This document shows positions 3,238 through 6,059 of a stretch of 47,485 nt of DNA, piece by piece (position 1 is the first letter of the stretch; the number at the start of each line of letters is the position of its first letter). Both the position numbers and the translations under genes were made by a program. The stretch covers positions 1 through 47,485 of the forward strand of contig WOUQ01000016.1 in the NCBI GenBank assembly GCA_009772925.1, in the 5' to 3' direction. The stretch is from a bacterium. GTDB taxonomy: Bacteria > Pseudomonadota > Gammaproteobacteria > Burkholderiales > Thiobacillaceae. The notes under the pieces were generated by a model that was given only the letters and a program-made list of their open reading frames with translations, searched no databases and was not told the DNA's origin.

Positions 3238-4521
<1,284 letters not shown>

Positions 4522-4523
4522 GC

Positions 4524-4571
4524 AGGACTGAGTAGCGAGGACTGAGGACTGAGGACTGAGGACTGAGTGAG
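4524..4571 (+). repeat. heptamer repeat (aggactg)n, left of the S23-type gene
   Basis: Four to five period-7 units of aggactg with a degenerate front (aggactgagtagcg). The same sequence family occurs inverted at 4952-4985 and 5252-5287. It fills the gap between the dehydrogenase stop codon and the next gene, whose GTG start at 4567 lies inside the repeat. Confidence 0.85.
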
Positions 4572-4947
4572 TAGGGCGGAGCGCTTCGAGGATCTCATCG
4601 CCTGGCAAAAAGCGAGGGCCTTGGCGGCTGCCGTATATCAGGCAAGCGGGTCGGGCCCTTTCTCGAGGGATTTCGGTCTGCGTGACCAAATACGTCGTGC
4701 GGCTGTCTCGGTCATGTCCAATATCGCGGAGGGATTTGAACGGGGAGGCAGGCCTGAGTTTCATGCTTTTCTGGTCATAGCCAAGGCATCCTGCGCTGAG
4801 GTCCGTTCACAGCTCTATATTGCCAGGGATGTGGGCTACCTCCCGCAAACACAATTCGACGGCCTGTTGGCCATGGCGGAAGAAACCGCCCGTATCATCG
4901 GCGGTCTGAGAGCCGCTGTTAAACCGAAATCACCGAAAGCCGCATGA
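4567..4947 (+). CDS. four-helix-bundle protein, S23/IVP family
   Basis: A 126-residue helical protein with the family signature: [14 protein letters not shown] at the start, [29 protein letters not shown] in the middle (quoted here by position 34-62), then a helix with [15 protein letters not shown]. The family includes proteins encoded by 23S rRNA intervening sequences and is related to Avd, the accessory protein of diversity-generating retroelements; its general role is unknown. No reverse transcriptase is nearby. The GTG start at 4567 is the only good one and lies in the heptamer repeat. Its stop overlaps the ATG of the epimerase (ATGA). It interrupts an otherwise expected dehydrogenase-epimerase pair and is flanked by inverted repeats, suggesting insertion. 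Confidence 0.85.
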
Positions 4948-6059
4948 TGCCCACTCAGCCCTCAGTCCTCAGTCCTCGTTACTCGGACCTCCTCGAAAAA
5001 CTCCCGAACGAGCCCAGGACCTGGCTGATCACCGGCGTCGCCGGCTTCATCGGCTGCAACCTGCTGGAAACCCTGCTGAAGCTGGATCAGCGGGTCGTGG
5101 GCCTGGACAACTTCGCCACCGGCCATCGCCACAACCTGGAACAGATCCGGGCGGCGGTGACGCCGGCGCAGTGGGCGCGCTTACAGTTCATCGAAGGCGA
5201 CATCCGCAATCTGGACGATTGCCGCCGCGCCATGACCTGGACCGGCGCCGGCACTCAGTCCTCAGCACTCGCTACTCAGCACTCAGTAGATTTCGTCCTG
5301 CACCAGGCCGCCCTGGGCTCCGTGCCGCGCTCCCTGGAAGACCCCATCACCACCAACGGCGCCAACATCGACGGTTTCCTCAACATGCTGGTGGCGGCGC
5401 GCGATGCGAAGGTGGCGCGCTTCGTCTACGCCGCCTCCAGTTCCACCTACGGCGACCATCCCGGCCTGCCGAAGGTGGAGGATCGCATTGGCAAGCCGCT
5501 GTCGCCCTACGCGGTGACCAAGCTGGTGAACGAGCAGTACGCCGAGGTGTTCGCCCGCGCCTACGGCTTCAGGACCATCGGCCTGCGCTACTTCAACATT
5601 TTCGGTGCGCATCAGGATCCCGAGGGCGCCTATGCCGCGGTGGTGCCCAAGTGGACCTCGGCGATGATTCACAACGAGCCGGTGTACATCAACGGCGACG
5701 GCGAGACCAGCCGCGACTTCTGCTACATCGCCAACACGGTGCAGGCCAATCTGCTGGCCGCCACCGCCGAGCACCCGGACGCGGCGAACCAGGTCTACAA
5801 CGTGGCGGTGGGCGATCGCACCACCCTGAACGACCTGTTCGAGGCCATTCGCGCCACCCTGGAGCCCCGTTTCCCCCATCTCAAGGGGTTCAAGCCCGTT
5901 TATCGCGACTTCCGCGCCGGCGACGTGCGCCATTCCCTGGCGGACATCGGCAAGGCGCGCACCCTGCTCGGCTACGCCCCCAGCCACCGCATCCGCGAGG
6001 GTTTGGTGGAAGCCATGGACTGGTACGTCAATGACCTGAGCGGACGTGGCGGCCGCTGA
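4944..6059 (+). CDS. UDP-N-acetylglucosamine 4-epimerase (WbpP/TviC type)
   Basis: A 371-residue extended short-chain dehydrogenase interconverting UDP-GlcNAc and UDP-GalNAc (or their uronic acids). Seen: the NAD motif TGVAGFIG (30-37), [11 protein letters not shown], the catalytic Ser/Tyr region ASSSTYGD and YAVTKLVNE, and the family stretches [13 protein letters not shown] and [13 protein letters not shown]. Compared with my memory of WbpP, two stretches are foreign: the N-terminus ([12 protein letters not shown], residues 4-15) and [13 protein letters not shown] (103-115), inserted between DIRNLDDC and [10 protein letters not shown]. Both are translations of the heptamer repeat. The insertion keeps the frame and falls in a surface loop after a beta strand, so the enzyme may still work. 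The start is ATG 4944, overlapping the S23-type stop; ATG 4947 is possible. The dacB gene overlaps its end. Confidence 0.9.
4952..4985 (-). repeat. heptamer repeat, right of the S23-type gene (inverted)
   Basis: Units of ctcagtc in the opposite orientation to 4524-4571, so the S23-type gene is bounded by inverted copies. This copy encodes residues 4-15 of the epimerase. Confidence 0.8.
5252..5287 (-). repeat. heptamer repeat inserted in frame in the epimerase gene
   Basis: The bases include tcagcactcgctactcag, close to the inverse of part of 4524-4571 (one base differs). The copy is an in-frame insertion inside the coding sequence and adds about 13-15 residues. Confidence 0.8.

Follow-up and report, generated by a model that had tools for sequence, protein, structure and literature searches.

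Genes of the S23/IVP family, best known from inserts in ribosomal RNA, stand between tandem heptamer arrays in bacteria of many phyla, and we regard this association of gene and arrays as near certain. For the system as a whole we lean, if only modestly, towards a reading like that of REPIN and RAYT, in which the IVP would be the sequence-specific partner of a family of hairpin repeats and the intervening sequences (IVSs) of rRNA would be a special case of it. Two old questions meet here, the function of IVP proteins and the abundance of heptamers in bacteria, and a heptamer-armed IVP could explain both the role of the protein and the long-unexplained repeats. If true, this would be an additional system for the spread of repeats, based on a protein that has no known nuclease; a unit of gene plus arms with its own repeat also makes direct and cheap testing possible.

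The IVP gene and its arms in the window

The window analysed is the whole of a 47,485-nucleotide contig, C29, from a draft genome of 3.22 Mb (G000), and the features discussed here are collected in Table 1. The IVP gene is flanked by inverted GAGGACT arrays; TRF returned AGGACTG in 6.3 copies at 4524-4567, CTCAGTC in 3.4 copies at 4954-4977 and a third array of period 7/14 at 5251-5288, and direct reading of the sequence confirmed all three, which lie where the original prediction had placed them. The pattern AGGACTGAGGACTG matched 21 times in the 3.22 Mb genome (17 forward and 4 reverse matches, some of them overlapping) and its reversed control 0 times, and thus the window arrays are not a product of chance. 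The strand from 4524 to 4985 (462 nt) is predicted to fold into a structure whose terminal stem, built from both arms, is about 25 bp long. The G+C content of the IVP gene is 58.0%, compared to 64.6 and 65.5% in its two neighbours and 67% in the window.

Table 1. Features around the IVP gene in the window
Feature	Position	Strand	Remarks
TviB-like nucleotide sugar dehydrogenase, upstream neighbour	3238..4521	+	profile matches
Left arm, tandem heptamers GAGTAGC-(GAGGACT)n	4524..4571	+	G-rich strand in sense; TRF and direct reading
IVP / S23 / four helix bundle protein gene, 126 aa	4567..4947	+	GTG start at left-arm end; PF05635, TIGR02436, AlphaFold
TviC-like NAD-dependent epimerase, downstream neighbour	4944..6059	+	N-terminus altered, loop inserted; profile matches
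Right arm, minus-strand heptamers of left-arm type (CTCAGTC in sense)	4952..4985	-	gives epimerase a new N-terminus
Third, single arm within epimerase gene	5251..5288	-	with a few flanking bases, a 15-residue in-frame insertion

In profile searches the IVP gene scored 125 bits (E 1.7e-36) against PF05635 and 115.7 bits against TIGR02436, and the product belongs to this family both by a score above the curated cut-off and by its fold. The AlphaFold model is a helical bundle of four long helices (pLDDT 96.4), for which Foldseek gave 2gsc (XCC0516) and 2rld (S23 family), of five chains each, as best PDB matches, followed by Avd of diversity-generating retroelements (DGRs), alone in 4dwl and as part of the reverse transcriptase RNP in 8ub7 and others (E about 0.01, probability 1.00, sequence identity about 16-18%). 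With Avd the IVP shares its fold, and the immediate neighbours of the window IVP are the tviB- and tviC-like genes. We know of no catalytic motif in IVP proteins, and to our knowledge no job has been established for the S23/IVP family. The protein is under purifying selection, since dN/dS was computable for 17 of 18 related IVP pairs and was 0.15 or less in all 17, these pairs not all being independent.

The original prediction had the IVP gene splitting a dehydrogenase-epimerase pair, and comparison with 20 epimerase orthologues of the same genus (L162-L181) bears this out. In 19 of them tviB lies upstream with the gap visible (the sequence of L178 stops short of it), and none of these 19 gaps contains an IVP gene. 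The 15-residue loop encoded by the third array, which had been described as lengthening the epimerase without a break in frame, is missing from the alignment in all 20, so that the prediction is not refuted on this point, L164 having 4 extra, unrelated residues at that position. Where the native start of the epimerase is visible in the orthologues it reads ATG-ACC-GCC-TAC or near it, and in the window it has been replaced by the second array, again as predicted. Because the orthologues lack the loop, lack the IVP and keep the native start, the arms with their IVP gene, and also the third array, are, judging from these sequences, insertions in the lineage of the window. It had further been suggested that the repeats avoid stop codons in several frames, and this holds for the C-rich strand, (CTCAGTC)n being stop-free in all frames, but fails for the G-rich strand, which has a TGA in every 21 nt. 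Both arrays that are coding within the epimerase are C-rich in sense, which fits the stops (TGA) being on the G-rich strand only.

Several of the relatives carry other inserts of about 600-1000 bp in the tviB-tviC gap (L167, L171-L173, L175, L177), which we take to resemble nucleotidyltransferase/HEPN or PIN-type pairs. Elsewhere in the window, on the minus strand at 240-918, a PIN-domain protein gene stands beside a small DUF6364-like ORF (just below the cut-off), looking like a VapBC-type toxin-antitoxin pair.

Heptamer arms of IVP genes across bacteria

That heptamer repeats go with S23/IVP genes, as suspected, has strong support reaching far beyond this one locus. We pooled 235 IVP loci from the same family, from a phylum sample and from 80 named contigs of many phyla, excluding plasmids, and found a period-7 array (score at least 7) at 342 of 463 flanks, compared to 10.4 in dinucleotide shuffles, so that the arrays are far from randomly placed relative to IVP genes. 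For periods 7-9 the count was 380 flanks against 29.8 in the shuffles, and at a score of at least 10 it was 267 against 1.0. At 210 of the 235 loci an array scoring at least 8 (periods 7-9) was present on one side or both; with a score of at least 7, arrays were present on both sides at 162 and on neither at 17.

Taken set by set, and with distant-window controls that are mostly coding DNA, period-7 arrays were found at 140 of 174 flanks of 87 distinct same-family loci (distant windows, 11 of 374), at 114 of 157 flanks in the 80 named contigs, whose many phyla include candidate ones (28 of 484), and at 43 of 57 flanks in the phylum sample (11 of 170); 40 more regions of the phylum sample, one of which repeats an earlier locus, had arrays at 47 of 78 flanks. 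The flanks of tviC, used as a control, had arrays at 2 of 38. The possibility that IVP genes are merely located in heptamer-rich DNA was rejected because arrays are rare in the shuffles, around tviC and in distant windows.

The named-contig set consists of the best 80 out of 581 confirmed loci and, having been found by one motif, is biased to that subfamily, and the phylum sample comprises 29 loci and 39 regions examined out of the matches. The same-family profile was built with one wrong-frame seed (L100) and still located 90 of 91 loci, the missed one (L153) having GATTTCG arms on both sides. Removal of L103, L079 and L141 as duplicates left the 87 same-family loci, and four items lay outside the initial set: a below-cut-off match in G088, G113:C10, G001:C3 (added later) and a further part of the L159 locus. 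From the pooled count L370 was removed as a duplicate; five near-identical pairs remain in it (L022/L142, L116/L117, L110/L298, which are one place, L129/L133 and L290/L291), and a small number of loci therefore enter the count twice.

Of 25 plasmid records, 10 IVPs were examined, and each had an array on one side or both; in one case the unit was of 8 bases. Two of the plasmid genes, both cyanobacterial, are armed IVP genes inside CRISPR operons, between cas10 and cmr3 (L308) and between cas6 and cas4 (L309). When the ends of the element were sought by comparing two Calothrix plasmids (L300, L301), the flanks were alike, with similar genes around both. In viral contigs, queried with the window protein alone, 35 pattern matches yielded 0 relatives.

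Where period-7 arrays were present on both sides, the right arm was the reverse complement of the left at 120 of 125 loci and a direct copy at the other 5, and the score for matching an arm with its own partner averaged 19.9, compared to at most 6.6 with shuffled partners. The left arm had more G than C at 109 of the 125 loci and less at 9. Arms had a median length of 28 nt (quartiles 24 and 33), typically four units; the idea that a pentameric protein is matched to an arm of five units was dropped on account of this length. Heptanucleotides are the commonest longer simple repeats in most bacterial genomes, and their abundance has been ascribed to the footprint of the polymerase (Mrazek 2007, as cited in the parts of PMC4679880 and PMC4692102 available to us). 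Replication slippage in loose intergenic DNA might make the arrays, which would then lie around IVP genes by chance, and it probably does act on some of them, namely long ones (up to 161 nt) with few imperfections. Slippage cannot, however, give inverted partners of the same unit, nor the typical length of four units, nor insertion together with a gene; we consider it barely conceivable as an explanation, and slippage alone is contradicted by the inverted partners and was rejected.

The repeat unit also tracks the sequence of the IVP (Mantel r 0.48 across 161 proteins, with 0 of 999 permutations as high). The mean match between units, out of 7, was 6.8 at more than 90% protein identity, 5.3 at 60-70% and 3.9 at 30-40%. 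The GAGGACT unit of the window occurs beside IVPs 68% and 64% identical to that of the window, in Nitrospira and Deltaproteobacteria assemblies, and these stand without tviB or tviC alongside; other IVPs of similar identity, for example L192, carry different units. Some lineages have units of 9 bases (L203, L240, L260) or 8 bases (L214, L217, L218, L283), as do others, and the lineage of the protein may determine how long the unit is.

Gene-less hairpins in the source genome and its relatives

Besides the IVP gene of the window, the source genome has a second one, and its heptamers fall into two families, GAGGACT and GGGAAAC. The second IVP gene (C4:279597) lies between inverted GGGAAAC arrays and presumably stands between the ends of dnaK and dnaJ; its surroundings are the same in G014 and G001. 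GGGAAAC arrays gave 82 forward and 92 reverse overlapping matches (at most 3 mismatches) in this genome, compared to 1 and 8 for a control pattern, and represent 36 separate sites among the matches listed. At 11 of the 14 sites read both arms were present, and at 3 a single arm was found at that threshold. These hairpins consist of about four G-rich units, a spacer and about four C-rich units, the spacer being 22-27 nt in 7 of the 11 and up to 93 nt, with no evident conserved sequence. The GAGGACT family occurs at eight further places in this genome, at each of which we read an array followed, after a short spacer, by its inverted partner, with no gene between the arms. Most arrays of this genome are such gene-less hairpins, without an IVP alongside.

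Counts across 117 genomes, which are raw and ignore kinship, suggest that hairpins of a family tend to accompany their cognate IVP. Arrays of GGGAAAC (3 units, at most 1 mismatch) numbered 65 in G000, 29 in G014 and 82 in G001, with 1 in G022 and none in the remaining 113, and a GGGAAAC-armed IVP (L022, L142, L134) was found in exactly the three genomes that hold the bulk. Within one genus, the median number of TCAGG arrays was 27 in 15 genomes with a TCAGG-armed IVP and 3 in 41 without (P = 1.3e-6, or 4.9e-5 after subtracting 4 matches for the gene's own arms; G069, which has a mixed left arm, was counted as non-cognate), and in the same genus a non-cognate IVP alone had no effect on the count (P = 0.36).

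The correspondence is not strict. TCAGG arrays also occur where no TCAGG-armed IVP was seen, both within the genus (25 in G104, 22 in G075) and outside it (34 in G114 and 28 in G001, for example). GAGGACT pairs are present in 8 of the 117 genomes, and among the IVPs examined only that of G000 has GAGGACT arms. GTGAAA arrays are multi-copy in G011, G017, G031, G032 and G001 (the backwards control also matches, up to 7 times in G001, because GTGAAAA arrays fit it too), and a profile search found no PF05635 match in the first four of these, G001 alone having a matching IVP, shortened at its N-terminus. A strict rule of no hairpins without an IVP is refuted by the genomes with GAGGACT or GTGAAA arrays and no cognate IVP; loss of the gene with the hairpins kept, incomplete assemblies or another driver would explain these cases.

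One intergenic GGGAAAC hairpin site of the source genome was traced, by reading, through 23 genomes of the same genus. The site holds GGGAAAC in G000 and G014, a GTGAAA-type hairpin in G011, G017, G031 and G032, a GAGCGGT-type in G027 and G028, a GGTAGTC-type in G018, whose IVP (L073) has GGTAGTC arms, and a GAGTCGC-like one in G020. Heptamer hairpins of five kinds thus occupy it in 10 of the 23 genomes, and it is array-less in another 10 (G012, G013, G015, G016, G019, G021, G022, G023, G026, G030), G029 falling outside these tallies. No PF05635 match was found in six of the ten hairpin-bearing genomes (G011, G017, G020, G027, G031, G032). A different, GTTGGGC palindrome occupies the site in G024 and G025 (L312, L324, L336), as if several repeat families competed for one landing place. 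Set beside a classical MITE of a DDE transposase, the elements have inverted arms, and no clean target duplication could be read at the traced site.

The original prediction of a small mobile unit gains from such empty and array-less sites, and has to be amended in that the gene-bearing unit can stay put and the scattered copies are mostly gene-less. Frequent jumping of the gene-bearing unit is unsupported, several of the pairs compared sharing their surroundings. In G045 the pair L140/L141 is identical over all 2724 bases compared and hence shows no element boundary.

A different view of the scattered hairpins would make the IVP an RNA-binding regulator or stabiliser, with arms in mRNA as its sites, autoregulation through those of its own gene, and a regulon of hairpins near gene ends and starts. 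By eye, several hairpins appear to lie near gene ends or starts, and the IVP gene is more often than not co-directional with the longest neighbouring ORFs, which we used as a proxy (119:56 upstream, 124:52 downstream); a role in translation has also been proposed for the TAACTGA arrays of Beggiatoaceae (PMC4679880, in the part available). Regulation by itself leaves unexplained the five hairpin families and array-less states at one site and the restriction of GGGAAAC to three genomes, and the third array of the window is inside a gene. We therefore think it unlikely, though worth bearing in mind, that regulation accounts for the system.

Relation to known repeat systems

One close precedent is the IVS in the 23S rRNA of Coxiella burnetii, which according to the part of PMC4990558 available to us is 428 nt long, has a terminal stem of 28 bp, is excised by RNase III and carries 2-3 tandem GACAGAT heptamers, varying between strains, before an S23p ORF regarded as probably not expressed. 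The window element likewise has an S23/IVP ORF and complementary ends predicted to form a stem, and the two are alike in protein family, in size (428 and 462 nt), in an end stem of 25-28 bp and in heptamers before the ORF. Unlike an rRNA IVS, the window element lies outside rRNA genes, between tviB- and tviC-like genes; that part of the Coxiella account makes no mention of other genes, of gene-less copies or of heptamers to both sides of the ORF. This likeness could be taken further, to an RNA element whose arms pair in the transcript and whose hairpin is excised by RNase III, making the insertion harmless, with the IVP mainly a passenger or a protector of the excised RNA. The length and predicted stem of the window element and the Coxiella case favour such an element, whereas the low dN/dS speaks against a mere passenger, and no Rfam match was found in the window, nor any Rfam rRNA match in 20 IVP loci (17 array-less and 3 others). 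As a full account we consider it improbable; it is compatible with a REPIN/RAYT-like system and not exclusive of it.

REPINs and their RAYTs come nearest in logic and, as described in the part of PMC3116915 available, share with the present system inverted doublets, a hairpin with spacer, many dispersed gene-less copies and a cognate gene. They differ in that each arm of a REPIN is one REP and those of the IVP are tandem 7-9-mers, and in that the gene between the arms encodes a PF05635 four-helix bundle and no Y1/HUH transposase. The window system resembles both IVS and REPIN/RAYT and is set apart from them because it is not in rRNA and has no Y1 transposase between its arms.

A Y1_Tnp transposase gene (IS200/RAYT-like, PF01797) does occur in the window at 1041-1802, with tandem repeats of 23 bp (981-1026) and 22 bp (1883-1926) on either side (TRF), and this locus, 2.7 kb from the IVP element, is a possible REP/RAYT locus. 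Its presence would suit an arrangement in which a Y1 (RAYT/IS200-like) transposase mobilises the hairpins and IVP genes ride between two of them. However, TRF lists no heptamer array around the Y1_Tnp gene (five window proteins were scanned for Y1_Tnp), the gene between the arms is an IVP across phyla, and the unit follows the IVP sequence; we regard this arrangement as very improbable.

On the REPIN/RAYT-like reading, an IVP gene with two inverted arms of about four heptamers each would be the gene-bearing member of a hairpin repeat family, and the gene-less copies (an arm of about 28 nt, a short unconserved spacer and another arm of about 28 nt) would be miniatures of it. The IVP, a four-helix bundle and probably a pentamer, would recognise its own unit (7 nt long, or in certain lineages 8 or 9) on the single-stranded DNA or RNA of the hairpin, and may promote the copying or retention of units bounded by its repeat, by analogy with RAYT and REPINs. 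Having no known nuclease, it would act together with an enzyme of the host or a borrowed one, perhaps with a reverse transcriptase as Avd does in DGRs, and rRNA IVSs would be such elements lodged in 23S rRNA. It is likely that the IVP acts on its repeat, and our best inference is that it drives the spreading of the repeat; the copy number could reflect retention rather than copying. Against this reading are the arrays in genomes where no cognate IVP was seen, the 17 loci with arrays on neither side, the 5 with direct arms, and the fact that neither a transposition intermediate nor a clean target duplication was seen and that IVP proteins have no known catalytic motif.

We hold more tentatively, as a possibility that falls a little short of probable, the wider claim that S23/IVP proteins are dedicated sequence-specific drivers of most bacterial tandem 7-9-mers, unit and protein co-diverging. 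This would be a further widespread kind of system beside REPIN/RAYT; its members would include the cyanobacterial tandem heptamers and the Xanthomonas GGGAATC repeats, and rRNA IVSs would be one special form of it. In the literature searched, which left out most subscription journals and preprints, we found no account of a general link between heptamers and IVP. Tandem heptamers of Calothrix are cited in the available part of PMC4692102. The TAACTGA repeats of Beggiatoaceae fall into 169 direct sets plus a single indirect one, usually lying immediately before starts (PMC4679880, in the part available); they are likewise tandem intergenic heptamers, in unrelated phyla, and differ in being nearly all direct sets, and the term 'S23' is absent from that text as available. 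The GGGAATC heptamers of Xanthomonas are mostly intergenic and form convergent inverted pairs, 70 of them in Xcc and 75 in Xac (PMC4692102, in the part available), and in the main text available no link of these heptamers to an S23 gene is made, the terms 'S23', 'four helix' and 'XCC0516' being absent. They resemble the arrays described here in being G-rich and in inverted pairs, and in our set GGGAATC arms flank an IVP, that of L373, which is open only in its first part and has XCC0516 as its top match in the PDB (58% identity, 36 of 62 aligned residues).
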